Source: Exiguobacterium artemiae 255-15
GTDB taxonomy: Bacteria; Bacillota; Bacilli; Exiguobacteriales; Exiguobacteriaceae
Assembly: GCF_000019905.1 (NCBI RefSeq)
Contig: NC_010556.1
Span: forward strand, 584,001 to 648,000
Length of the DNA stretch: 64,000 bases
Direction: 5' to 3'
Shown here: positions 31,974-57,518 of the stretch, one piece after another
Position numbering within the stretch: the first letter of the stretch is position 1
How the letters are laid out: every line of letters begins with the position of its first letter
Translations under genes and position numbers: made by a program
Notes under the pieces: model-generated
Databases searched by the model: none
What the model saw: the letters and a program-made list of their open reading frames with translations, nothing else
What the model was told of the DNA's origin: nothing

Positions 31974-32277
31974 AATTCAATTGTAACAACGACGTTGAAG
32001 GGAAGAGTAACATCTTGTAAAACCGGATTAGCGAGCTGGGGGCGGTGAGAGCCCAGTCGGAAACAAGTTGCGAAGAACATCCCGGAGTCGCTACCCGAAC
32101 ACTGAAGTCAGTAGGCGTAGCCGGAGTTGCCTGTCCGTTATCATATGGCCGAAGATTGAGATGATAATTGATCATCAGTCTTTTGAGTGAGCAGCTGAGC
32201 TGTTAACATGGGTGGTACCGCGGAACCGAGTCTTTCGTCCCATATTCTTGGGAGAGAAGGGCTCTTTTTTATGGCTT
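31974..32277 (+). ncRNA. T-box leader controlling asnA
   Basis: Contains the T-box signature GGGTGGTACCGCGG at 32210-32223, which pairs with the uncharged tRNA acceptor end. Upstream lies a Stem I region (about 32023-32137) with AGCGAGCTGGGG, GGTGAGAGCCCAG and CCCGGAGT elements. The terminator GAGTCTTTCGTCCCA / TGGGAGAGAAGGGCTC with a T-run spans 32227-32277. An AAC (Asn) triplet at 32098-32100 in the CCCGAACAC stretch is the likely specifier, fitting asnA. Likely promoter: TTTTCA 31938-31943 and TACGAT 31962-31967, 18 nt apart. The element covers most of this 470-bp gene-free stretch. Confidence 0.92.
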
Positions 32278-54847: not shown

Positions 54848-56518
54848 TTAATCAAAATAAATTGTTCCCGTCAAATCATCAAGACGCTTTAAATCGTGTT
54901 GAATGGCTTGAATGTCACTGGGCTGCTGTTCCCGCAATGGTTTCGTACCGATCGGATGAACGCTCGCATCCCCATCTAAAGTAATAGTCCGGTTCGAAAG
55001 ACGATTATTAAAATAACGATCATGCGAAACAAATAACAGTTCACCCGGAAAGACGTCAAGGGCGGCTTCAATTTGTTCACGGGTCGTCAAATCAAGATAG
55101 TTGGTCGGTTCATCCAAAATCAACAAACGGGCACCGGAAAAGTAAAGTCGTAAGAAAGCAATCCGGCATCGCTCTCCCATGCTGGCTTCAGCAATCGGTT
55201 TATACACCTGATCCCGGCGAAACAGAAAACACGCAAGCAGCGTCCGGGCATCGGTTTCGGAAATCGTCGTCTCCTGTAGTAACGCATCGAGCAGGGAACC
55301 GGAAACCGGTAAATTGGAAAGAGCCTGTGAAAAGTAGCCGACTGTCAGCGCGGGATGGCGCGTGATTGTTCCTTCCATCGGATCGAGCTCCCCTTGAATC
55401 AGCCGGAGCAGGGTCGTCTTGCCGGATCCGTTCCGGCCGATGACAGCAATCCGGTCGCCTTGTTGCATGGAAAAGGTCAGTTTTTTAAATAGCGTCCGAC
55501 CGTCATACGAAAAAGCGACTTTGTCTAATGTAAACAGTTGTTTGGCGGCAAAGGATGCTGCTTCGAATGCCACATGAACGGAGGCTGGATGTTCCGGTTT
55601 GGCGACCCGGTGATCGATTGTCTGTTCGAGTTGTTTTTCTTTTGCCTTAAATTTCTTGGCTTGTTTCGCTGCTTTTTTCTTGGCGTAAGGATCCCGTTCG
55701 CTGGCGTGAGCAACAGCCTGTTGATGCCAGTTTTGATACTGGGTGATCATCCGTTTGAGTTCCTTCCGTGTTTTTTCCTGCTTTTCATACTCGCGTTCCT
55801 GGGTCAGGCGTTCCTGTTCTTTTTGCTGACGATATGCTTGATAATTACCTTTGTAGCGTGTCGCTTGATGCGGTGTCAGTTCGATGACAGCATCGGCTGT
55901 TGCATCGATGAAAGCCCGCTCATGCGAGACATACAAAATAGTGATCGCTGTCTGATTGATCCAGTTGATCAACCAATCAAGCGTCTCCGAATCCAAATGA
56001 TTGGTCGGTTCATCGAGCAGAATGAAATCGGGTTGCTTGACCAACAGACAGGCCAGCTGAATCCGGGTCTGTTCACCGCCGCTGAGTGTGTCAAACGAAT
56101 GAAGCCAGACATGTTCAGGTAACTGGACTTCTTTTAAAGCCCGTGCCGCATCCGCCTCAAGAGAAAACGCATCGAGATCGAGTGCCGTTTGGTAGATTTC
56201 AAGTGAAGAGGCATGCAGCGCCGCTTCCCGCGCCTGATACCGGAGTCGGTCGGCTTGTTCGACGAGCCGGATGGCAGGTGCACTTGAGGTGAGATGCTGG
56301 GCGACGTGACCGATCGTCGTGTAGCCGCGGAAGATGTTTCCCTCCGTCGGTTGAAGCTGTTTTAAAATCAGCTGGAAGAGTGTCGTTTTACCGACACCAT
56401 TGGCACCGACTAAAGCAACATGTTCACCGGGACGGATCGAAAATGAAATGTGTTGAAACAGCGTCTGCTCTGGAAGATCAAAGCGGACATCATGAATGGA
56501 TAAGATTTCAGCAGGCAT
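54848..56518 (-). CDS. ABC-F family ribosome-protection ATPase (ARE ABC-F, Vga/Msr/VmlR-like)
   Basis: 556 residues, two ATPase domains without membrane segments. First: Walker A GANGVGKTTLFQL, signature LSGGEQTRIQLA, Walker B FILLDEPTNHLD. Between them is a long basic linker (YEKQEKTRKELKRMITQYQ to FKAKEKQLEQTIDHR) that in the family reaches the ribosomal peptidyl centre. Second: GRNGSGKTTLLRL, signature ASMGERCRI, LLILDEPTNYLD. Such proteins displace ribosome-bound antibiotics. ATG at 56518 follows AAAGGAG by 8 nt; the frame continues open through the leader to 56677. Leader control suggests resistance rather than a housekeeping Uup/EttA role. Confidence 0.85.
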   Translation of the reverse strand: MPAEILSIHDVRFDLPEQTLFQHISFSIRPGEHVALVGANGVGKTTLFQLILKQLQPTEGNIFRGYTTIGHVAQHLTSSAPAIRLVEQADRLRYQAREAALHASSLEIYQTALDLDAFSLEADAARALKEVQLPEHVWLHSFDTLSGGEQTRIQLACLLVKQPDFILLDEPTNHLDSETLDWLINWINQTAITILYVSHERAFIDATADAVIELTPHQATRYKGNYQAYRQQKEQERLTQEREYEKQEKTRKELKRMITQYQNWHQQAVAHASERDPYAKKKAAKQAKKFKAKEKQLEQTIDHRVAKPEHPASVHVAFEAASFAAKQLFTLDKVAFSYDGRTLFKKLTFSMQQGDRIAVIGRNGSGKTTLLRLIQGELDPMEGTITRHPALTVGYFSQALSNLPVSGSLLDALLQETTISETDARTLLACFLFRRDQVYKPIAEASMGERCRIAFLRLYFSGARLLILDEPTNYLDLTTREQIEAALDVFPGELLFVSHDRYFNNRLSNRTITLDGDASVHPIGTKPLREQQPSDIQAIQHDLKRLDDLTGTIYFD

Positions 56519-56565
56519 AGGTTCAGCTCCTTTGGGGTTCATTTCAAATTGTGATGAAATGAAAA

Positions 56566-56595
56566 CACACCATCCGAAAGCGAGCGGATGGTGTG
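56566..56595 (-). terminator. Attenuator-like hairpin in the ABC-F leader
   Basis: On the minus strand CACACCATCCG pairs perfectly with CGGATGGTGTG around CTCGCTTT and is followed by TTTTCATTTC. It lies 48 nt before the ABC-F start and inside an open frame that is continuous with the gene, as expected of a translation-sensitive attenuator. Confidence 0.7.
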
Positions 56596-56667
56596 CAGGA
56601 GTGCAAATCAAAGAAGGTATATCCCGCATGACGGAAATACCGAAAATGAGCAGACTCGTAGCGTCAG

Positions 56668-56709
56668 TCATCCGCAACTCATTGCGAAAGTGATGAATTC
56701 TTTCATCAT
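56668..56709 (-). CDS. Leader ORF 2 of the ABC-F gene (13 codons)
   Basis: Starts at the TAATG that overlaps the leader ORF 1 stop, encodes MMKEFITFAMSCG and ends TGA, where GGATGA overlaps an ATG at 56671. That ATG opens a frame continuous with the ABC-F gene. No ribosome site of its own, so it depends on ribosomes from leader ORF 1. Contains an internal hairpin CGCAA/TTGCG. Confidence 0.45.
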   Translation of the reverse strand: MMKEFITFAMSCG

Positions 56710-56735
56710 TAGACAGTAGCGAGTAAATGCTTCAT
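56709..56735 (-). CDS. Leader ORF 1 of the ABC-F gene (8 codons)
   Basis: AGGAGG lies 12 nt upstream of the ATG at 56735; the peptide is MKHLLATV, then TAA. Short hydrophobic leader peptides of this size precede many antibiotic-induced ribosome-protection and methylase genes. It overlaps leader ORF 2 by one base (TAATG). Confidence 0.5.
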   Translation of the reverse strand: MKHLLATV

Positions 56736-56772
56736 TTCGGTATTGTACCTCCTGTTCATAGACTATGTGTTC

Positions 56773-56801
56773 AATGTAGCAACTTGTCGTCAGCAAGACA
56801 A
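56773..56801 (-). promoter_or_regulatory. Promoter of the ABC-F gene
   Basis: Minus strand TTGTCT (56801-56796), 17-nt spacer, TACATT (56778-56773). The -35 lies inside the last codons of pflA. Transcription would start about 30 bp before leader ORF 1. Confidence 0.5.
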
Positions 56802-57518
56802 GTAAGAATCGAGCAATTCTTGAGCCGCAGCGGCTTCTTCCGGATTCGGTGGCAGAACATCCGCCAATGGATAGTCGAGACCGAGTGCTTCCCATTTGTA
56901 AACGCCAAGCTGGTGATAAGGGAGTACTTCGATCCGTTCGACATTACCGAGTGTCCGGATGAATTCGCCGGTCTGGCGCAGGAACGTCTCCGTCATCGTC
57001 AAACCGGGCACGAGAACGTGACGGATCCAGACGGGAATGTTCCGTTCTGCCAAGCGTTTGGCAAAGGCAAGTGTATTGGCATTACTGCGCCCCGTCAGAA
57101 TCCGGCAGGTCGCATCATCGATATGCTTAATGTCGAGTAACACGAGATCCGTGTAATCAAGAATCCGGTCGATATTTTTAGGAACGACCGAACCGGCTGT
57201 ATCGATGACGGTATGCATGCCTTTTTGTTTTGCTTCCCGAAGTGCCGCTTCCAAAAATTCCGGTTGGGCAAGGGGTTCTCCACCGGAAAATGTGATACCA
57301 CCGCCTGTTGCTTCGAAAAATGATCGGTAACTTTCCGCTTCTTCAATGATTTCCGTTGCCGAGACGGAACGACCACACCCGAATTCCCACGTATCCGCAT
57401 TGTGGCAGTATTGGCAACGTAAAGGACAGCCTTGTGTGAAGACGATGAAGCGAATACCCGGTCCGTCGACCGTGCCGCAGGATTCAACAGAATGAATCGT
57501 TCCGTGTGTCATAGCCAT
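56790..57518 (-). CDS. pflA: Pyruvate formate-lyase activating enzyme PflA
   Basis: Radical-SAM enzyme that installs the glycyl radical on PflB. 242 residues. Cluster motif CPLRCQYCHN (CxxxCxxC) near residues 31-38; FSGGEPLAQPEF is the SAM-binding GGE motif. DIKHIDDATCRILTGRSN and VLVPGLTM are typical of PflA. ATG at 57518 follows AAAGGAC; an ATG at 57512 is also possible. It lies 18 bp after pflB with no terminator between them, so both are co-transcribed. Confidence 0.95.
   Translation of the reverse strand: MAMTHGTIHSVESCGTVDGPGIRFIVFTQGCPLRCQYCHNADTWEFGCGRSVSATEIIEEAESYRSFFEATGGGITFSGGEPLAQPEFLEAALREAKQKGMHTVIDTAGSVVPKNIDRILDYTDLVLLDIKHIDDATCRILTGRSNANTLAFAKRLAERNIPVWIRHVLVPGLTMTETFLRQTGEFIRTLGNVERIEVLPYHQLGVYKWEALGLDYPLADVLPPNPEEAAAAQELLDSYLSC

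Follow-up and report, generated by a model that had tools for sequence, protein, structure and literature searches.

An ABC-F gene of Exiguobacterium artemiae 255-15, a core gene of its family, is probably preceded by a ribosome-sensing transcription attenuator of the vmlR type, to which attenuation of translation is probably added. The window is a stretch of 64,000 nucleotides (nt) from this genome (NCBI RefSeq assembly GCF_000019905.1, contig NC_010556.1, positions 584,001 to 648,000), and positions below are counted from its first letter. The leader, about 250 nt long, was read directly from the minus strand between pflA and the ABC-F gene and holds a Shine-Dalgarno (SD) sequence, two short open reading frames (ORF1 and ORF2) and a terminator hairpin (Table 1). 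Its conservation, its alternative folds and the dependence of these on the position of the ribosome were established computationally. An earlier model-made interpretation of the letters alone (the sequence-only reading) had placed the SD sequence, both frames, an ATG at 56671 and the 11-bp hairpin, all of which hold on direct reading, and had likened the arrangement to the leader-ORF attenuator of vmlR, which our results support, as they do the overlap that chains ORF1 to ORF2, present in 37 of 38 leaders.

Conserved elements and competing folds

The leaders compared were 38, of which 19 come from the genus of the window (hereafter the genus; found by DNA search in 19 of 19 genomes) and 19 from a sister genus (taken from the ABC-F loci). 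Together they presumably represent the Exiguobacterium family; four relatives of the ABC-F protein with 83-89% identity belong to Exiguobacterium. One leader, L053, fell outside the SD pattern used for counting, and its frames were read by eye and included. The ABC-F gene, ORF1, ORF2, the terminator and the two competing folds are kept in all 38, bearing out for both frames what the sequence-only reading had left to a comparison of related genomes. ORF1 has 8 or 9 codons and begins with Met-Lys in 37 leaders and with Met-Tyr in L019, and its SD lies 12 nt from the ATG in the window, a spacing above the usual.

The leader RNA of the window folds at -85.6 kcal/mol versus -60.6 kcal/mol for shuffled sequences (z -5.29; reached by 0 of 200 shuffles). 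Consensus folds were derived with RNAalifold from the 19 leaders of each genus. In the repressed (OFF) fold of the genus, the SD, start and body of ORF1 are paired with a segment 3' of ORF2, and this pairing encloses two small hairpins; the terminator and a paired ABC-F SD come next. The sister-genus consensus joins the body of ORF1 to the end of ORF2, then come the terminator and a helix covering the ABC-F SD, and the single leaders L044 and L053 pair the ORF1 SD and start as well. The helix predicted to hide the ABC-F SD in this state has 4 pairs in the genus and 13 in the sister genus. Across leaders, 97.8% (genus) and 98.6% (sister genus) of the cells of the OFF fold are paired versus 35.5-44.2% and 36.5-48.2% when the partners are slid, with 26 and 23 cells altered on both sides, counts that 0 of 500 shuffles reach for either. 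The terminator helix of the genus leaders is paired in 99.0% of the cells, and two of the four pairs of hairpin P4 are altered on both sides.

The competing (ON) fold is paired in 96.3% (genus) and 98.9% (sister genus) of the cells. In the genus, an 11-pair antiterminator helix joins the end of ORF2 to the 5' arm of the terminator (99.0% of cells paired, zero pairs altered on both sides), and the ACTC of the likely anti-SD is captured by a partner other than the ABC-F SD. In the sister genus, with a ribosome at the start of ORF1, the strand GGGTGAAG at the end of ORF2 pairs with CTTCACACC on the 5' side of the terminator. Moreover, 33 of 38 leaders have a TTNTTT motif in the 60 nt preceding the terminator (missing there in L019, L049, L051, L055 and L058); in the genus it follows P4, where it could pause RNA polymerase.

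Table 1. Features of the ABC-F leader, in positions of the window.
Feature	Position	Strand	Description
Probable promoter	56773..56801	-	TTGTCT (56801-56796), 17 nt, TACATT (56778-56773); overlaps the end of pflA
ORF1 SD	56748..56753	-	AGGAGG; identical in all 19 genus leaders; also within the 5' strand of P1
ORF1	56709..56735	-	ATGAAGCATTTACTCGCTACTGTCTAA, MKHLLATV and stop; predicted sensor; in 38/38 leaders
ORF2	56668..56709	-	MMKEFITFAMSCG and stop; start shares 1 nt with the ORF1 stop (TAATG)
Helix P1	56753-56746 with 56619-56612	-	97.0% of cells paired
Anti-antiterminator	56637..56743	-	P2 and P3 enclosing H1 and H2; genus consensus (RNAalifold)
Helix P2	56743-56732 with 56649-56637	-	ATACCGAAATGA with TCATTTTCGGTAT; one pair CG in 9 and UA in 9 of 19 leaders
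Helix P3	56724-56720 with 56658-56654	-	ACTCG with CGAGT, plus GTC/GAC
Hairpin H1	56708-56702 / 56697-56691	-	GATGA with TCATC
Hairpin H2	56688-56682 / 56677-56671	-	
Antiterminator	56584..56675	-	GCGGATG (56675-56669, end of ORF2) with CATCCGC (56590-56584, terminator 5' arm), plus 4 more pairs
Antiterminator, second helix	56657-56654 with 56602-56599	-	GAGT with ACTC; consensus ON fold
Hairpin P4	56610..56636	-	covarying; P4 at about 56636-56621, then TTCTTT (56615-56610)
Terminator hairpin	56566..56595	-	11 bp, perfect (56595-56585 / 56576-56566), loop of 8, then TTTTC
ABC-F SD and likely anti-SD	56527..56602	-	AGGAG (56531-56527) with ACTCCT (56602-56597); helix 10 of the OFF fold, paired in 97.4% of cells
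ABC-F gene	54848..56518	-	556 aa, ribosomal protection-like; NF000355, 492.9 bits (cut-off 380)

It is highly improbable that the region is an ordinary structured intergenic one, whose hairpin terminates the pfl operon and leaves the ABC-F gene with no drug-sensing leader. The hairpin does sit between the pflB-pflA pair (profile matches TIGR01255 and TIGR02493, pflB preceding pflA) and the ABC-F gene, but both genera conserve ORF1 jointly with the alternative folds, and a promoter-like pair at the same place before ORF1 is the best or equal-best in 19 of 19 genus leaders (TTGTCT, TTGTCA, TTGTGT or TTGACG, 17 nt, then TACATT, TACACT, TAGACT or TACAAT). A stricter promoter scan of 56450-56950 found none. 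The terminator-like hairpin is the sole site of its kind in that interval (consensus scan: 1 found; mean of 0.4 in shuffles).

Ribosome position and the switch between folds

Each leader was folded as a transcript that stops one base short of the terminator's 3' arm, and the footprint of a ribosome was barred from pairing. The ribosome was placed on ORF1 codons 1-8 and ORF2 codons 1-13 with footprints of 15/17, 20/15, 20/12 and 12/14, and we counted how many bases of the terminator 5' arm the antiterminator holds, averaged over the 19 leaders of each genus. At footprint 20/15, 0.4 bases are held in both genera without a ribosome, whereas ribosomes at ORF1 codons 1-3 give 10.3, 10.3 and 9.9 in the genus and 7.2, 7.2 and 7.1 in the sister genus; from ORF2 codon 8 onward, the values are 0.4 and 0.1-0.5. 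With the ribosome on the ORF1 ATG, the antiterminator is predicted in 38 of 38 leaders at footprints 15/17, 20/15 and 20/12, for which the lowest leader at codon 1 holds 8.1, 9.2 and 7.5 bases in the genus and 6.8, 6.8 and 6.5 in the sister genus, respectively. As a control, the middle of ten leaders was dinucleotide-shuffled 60 times each; the observed switch was reached by 0 of 60 shuffles for each of six genus leaders and by 3, 2 and 1 of 60 for three of the sister genus.

Positions early in ORF2 bear on the possibility that the leader is a dual sensor, in which stalls on ORF1 and at the beginning of ORF2 both induce, so that one leader senses different drugs. For the sister genus, placing the ribosome at ORF2 codons 1-4 still yields a predicted antiterminator (means of 5.2-6.2 at footprint 20/15); it persists through ORF2 codon 6 in L019, and the minimum-energy fold of the window leader gives it at ORF2 codon 4. 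However, the genus mean drops to only 1.4-2.2 at ORF2 codons 1-5 (same footprint) and peptide conservation is absent, and we consider a dual sensor unlikely. An antiterminator set off by an ORF2 stall was first modeled for the window leader, where of the positions tried in ORF2 that one codon gave it, and was dropped after scans of 16 and 38 leaders.

Several observations weigh against the attenuator as described. The number of pairs altered on both sides in the OFF fold is 4 in the genus and 5 in the sister genus, which 22 and 161 of 500 shuffles reach, and further pair types are as high in 470 and 311 of 500; these two measures stand out from the shuffles poorly or not at all. The antiterminator helices are almost invariant and hence beyond a covariation test; they therefore rest on conservation and complementarity, not on covariation. 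In the sister genus, the consensus without a ribosome and with the 3' terminator arm not yet out is already the antiterminator, and single-leader folds differ from it. With footprint 12/14, which leaves the SD free, the switch is lost in some genus leaders (minimum of 0.1 at codon 1), and with footprint 15/17 some fail at ORF1 codons 2-4 (minimum of 0.0). The switch of L051 is no better than its shuffles (12 of 60), and even with no ribosome 4.9 bases are held in this leader. After the 3' arm has emerged, every state tested favors the terminator: by 9.8-19.6 kcal/mol without a ribosome and still by 4.4-16.2 kcal/mol over the best terminator-free fold with one on ORF1 (12 leaders). The antiterminator must therefore win kinetically. 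The T run after the terminator hairpin is short. The varying codon columns of ORF1 and ORF2 comprise 24 nonsynonymous and 2 synonymous-only ones (L019 omitted, plus L006 and L007 for ORF2), that is, no coding conservation. Finally, the general ABC-F model NF000355 also passes in 8 of 14 control genomes, and for this reason the role of the gene in antibiotic resistance is one that we infer.

A conserved leader peptide acting as an arrest peptide was rejected on the codon columns just given, and peptide-specific arrest on ORF1 or ORF2 is unlikely.

Proposed roles of ORF1, ORF2 and the third frame

From the conserved elements and folds, we infer translation of ORF1 and ORF2, stalling by a drug, termination and a part for ORF2, as follows. 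In the absence of drug, ORF1 would be translated and its ribosome would soon be gone; the ORF1 strand would then pair at or after the end of ORF2 as the anti-antiterminator, the terminator would form, and transcription would end before the ABC-F gene, whose SD would be concealed in the rare readthrough transcripts. A drug that pins the ribosome at the start of ORF1 would block the anti-antiterminator. The 5' arm of the terminator would then be bound by the last part of ORF2 (GCGGATG in the genus, GGGTGAAG in the sister genus), letting RNA polymerase read through. In the genus, the antiterminator would also capture the anti-SD and thereby free the ABC-F SD. A start-codon trigger would fit retapamulin and lincomycin, since both are described as stalling initiating ribosomes (PMC9226507).

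ORF2, begun by ribosomes that finish ORF1, may reset the switch by moving an unstalled ribosome onto the antiterminator strand. The two frames would then form a relay that signals by position: while a ribosome is held on ORF1 the ABC-F gene is on, and once it escapes and restarts on ORF2 the gene is turned off, a reading that we hold tentatively. In the predicted off-step, the anti-antiterminator strand would be released and the ribosome would terminate on the antiterminator strand, where ORF2 ends (GGATGA or GGGTGA) in 26 of 38 genomes (7 of 19 in the genus, 19 of 19 in the sister genus), modeled as an OFF position. If this is true, the efficiency of reinitiation sets the basal level and the speed of reset, the leader shows how a switch with an upstream ORF (uORF) of more than three codons avoids leaky expression, and it would allow translational coupling to be tested as a regulatory off-step. 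Termination-reinitiation in such a reset role was not met in the literature searched.

Alternatively, ORF1 alone matters and the start and stop of ORF2 are by-products of H1 and of the antiterminator strand, ORF2 being hardly translated. ORF2 lacks an SD, and both its start and its stop sit in RNA structure that is possibly kept for itself, which also counts against our reading. Its peptide is unconserved, its frame is shifted in L006 and L007, and its end lies 4 nt further in L006 and extends to 12-20 nt before the ABC-F gene in eleven genus genomes. Overlaps of 1 or 4 nt between a stop and an ATG are common, occurring in 135 of the 652 ATG ORFs of 5-15 codons in the window; 20 of 24 related ABC-F leaders from other families lack an ATG that overlaps the stop of the uORF; and occupancy of ORF1 suffices for the folding switch. 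On the other hand, the overlap is present in 37 of 38 leaders through two geometries (1 nt in 28, 4 nt in 9, with a 3-nt gap in the remaining one), the ORF2 stop lies inside the antiterminator strand in the 26 genomes mentioned, that of the window included, and ATGA and TGATG overlaps are associated with translational coupling in the account of PMC6728339. Moreover, the ATG/TGA side of H1 at the start of ORF2 is invariant in the 38 leaders, while the opposite side is altered in L005, L045 and L056. We rate this alternative as a serious possibility, somewhat short of even, and consider a reset by ORF2 and ORF2 as a by-product of RNA structure about equally likely.

In the sister genus, a GTG, one codon and a TGA stand near the SD and share 4 nt with the ORF1 ATG in 18 of 19 leaders (L040-L058). 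A two-codon ORF led by this GTG was considered and set aside, as a small stem is predicted to contain the GTG and is still paired in the exception leader; judging from the folds, the element is probably a small stem and possibly a two-codon ORF.

The sequence-only reading had proposed another use of the chain: ribosomes relayed from ORF1 to ORF2 and on to a third frame (ORF3) would enter the hairpin and hold it open for transcription, and the product might gain 51 residues. Masked folding runs contrary to this, since it gives the antiterminator with a ribosome on ORF1 and a terminator-permitting fold with one well inside ORF2; a relayed ribosome should therefore turn the system off, not on. 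Likewise, a drug stall on ORF1 or ORF2 would reduce, not increase, entry into ORF3. Of the genus leaders tested (L019 excluded), all 18 have the frame that continues from ORF2/ORF3 open across the terminator; its indels differ by clade, and it mostly ends about 20 nt before the ABC-F gene, which speaks for its use. However, shuffles leave the frame open with a chance of 0.21-0.51 per genus leader, the 18 are close relatives, and in the sister genus it is open in just 6 of 19; translation through the terminator as a conserved function is thus not supported. The ORF3 peptide is unconserved; in 11 of the 19 genus genomes ORF3 does not stand as a frame of its own, and the sister genus does not conserve it. 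We regard a ribosome-opened hairpin as very unlikely.

As to the extension, the ATG at 56671 overlaps the ORF2 stop (GGATGA) and lies 51 codons in frame before the ABC-F ATG at 56518, and a 609-aa frame is listed from a TTG two codons 5' of it. The longer product is possible in the window genome and in no other of the genus, as fusion needs one extra base (alignment column 229, about 56552) that only the window genome has among the 19 members (the frame was read in 17 of the other 18; L006 was inferred from the alignment, and L019 has no ATG there). An N-terminally extended ABC-F protein as a general feature was rejected, hinging on that one base.

The ABC-F gene and known leaders

The ABC-F gene is likely an antibiotic-protection gene, judging from its sequence. 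The cut-offs of the named resistance subfamilies are all missed (Sal 471.6 against 725, Vga 328 against 725, Lsa 257.3 against 750, Msr 274.9 against 680, CplR 236 against 780), the Sal model being the next nearest after NF000355. The best solved relatives of the protein are 7p48 (top), which we take to be a Sal protein, 6ha8, presumably VmlR, and 8buu. The last of these is VmlR2, as given in PMC10201436.

Related ABC-F leaders from other families (24 leaders, L071-L096; L090 is the same place as L093) carry a uORF of 2-8 codons (MNN, MK, MDIR, MRFDR, MKNDR and others). They share a common plan of an SD often at least 10 nt from the ATG, a short uORF and a downstream motif; by pattern search, a GGGATACGTGTGTC-like motif follows the uORF in 19 of the 24. 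The sister-genus leader holds a stretch, CGGGTGAAGTGTGTCC, that is similar to this motif, and for this reason the family leaders and the outside ones may share an origin. A TAATG chain outside the family was found in three leaders of one family (L091-L093; MIIR or MIIQ, then a stop running into a second ORF) and in L081, so that chained leader ORFs may not be limited to the Exiguobacterium family. The genomes of L091-L093 have about 2.3-2.5 Mb. In L063, with an ABC-F gene 27% identical to the one studied here, no such leader was found in the stretch read.

A second ABC-F gene of the same genome (G000:C1:984729-986264, minus strand) has a leader of its own (L097, L100-L118) with one ORF of 26 codons. 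A script found it as M[GD]FAACKHWLMEQLYLLRAIFHGMAF and stop, or close to that, in 18 of the 19 genus genomes; it missed L118, whose ORF is alike in the alignment. The stop adjoins a GGGACTAGTCTGTCC-like motif, followed by a terminator-like stretch, and five codon columns vary synonymously while six do not. This ORF looks like an undescribed leader peptide, and its leader, with a conserved peptide, is a useful contrast to the ORF1/ORF2 leader. Searches against Rfam gave no match at the curated score for the ORF1/ORF2 leader (window, L001, L019, L044, L051), none for the related leaders covered and, for the 20 loci searched, nothing besides tRNAs and three matches under the curated scores. Elsewhere in the window, a T-box leader lies at 31986-32245 on the plus strand (115.4 bits).

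No paper on the regulation of Exiguobacterium ABC-F genes was found in the literature searched, nor was an ABC-F leader with two chained ORFs, in line with the sequence-only reading, which knew of no such two-step relay in published leaders. The likeness to vmlR is drawn from the published description of its leader. As set out there (PMC9226507), a drug-held ribosome on the uORF of Bacillus subtilis vmlR prevents the anti-antiterminator, and the antiterminator then forms, allowing readthrough and unmasking the SD of the gene. In both systems, a uORF with its own SD lies inside the anti-antiterminator, an intrinsic terminator stands between uORF and gene, and a helix hides the ABC-F SD and is undone by the antiterminator (here predicted); a stall at the first codons induces in vmlR and is predicted to do so here. 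Also, the pause hairpin and the NusG-related TTNTTT, placed at the antiterminator apex in vmlR, are resembled here by P4 and TTCTTT. Unlike the single vmlR uORF of 3 codons (MIN), ORF1 has 8-9 codons and is chained to a second ORF. Short uORFs also precede cplR, vmlR2 and lsaA in the account of PMC10201436, and ORF1 begins with MK as the vmlR2 consensus MK[L/Q] does, but theirs are single and of 3-4 codons (MR[I/M], MK[L/Q], MAGN). The single uORF of 3-4 codons of the characterized cases is not found here, and we do not deem it necessary to the vmlR type.

With msrDL, as described in PMC10314930, the leader shares a uORF, a terminator and a TTNTTT before an ABC-F gene; msrDL, however, arrests at the stop codon of MYLIFM and the stalled ribosome itself blocks the terminator, whereas here the peptide is not conserved and an antiterminator is predicted. 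Two leader peptides sharing sequence, ermBL and ermBL2, both required for induction, are presented for ermB in PMC8274638, where in contrast the gene encodes a methyltransferase, the attenuation is translational and the second frame starts with a GTG inside the first, not at its stop. The core of the attenuator is thus already known from vmlR, and what varies is the overlapping chain of two ORFs. In this way the vmlR logic is extended to an ABC-F gene that all 38 family genomes share. The two genera have different antiterminator sequences but the same predicted position of the trigger.

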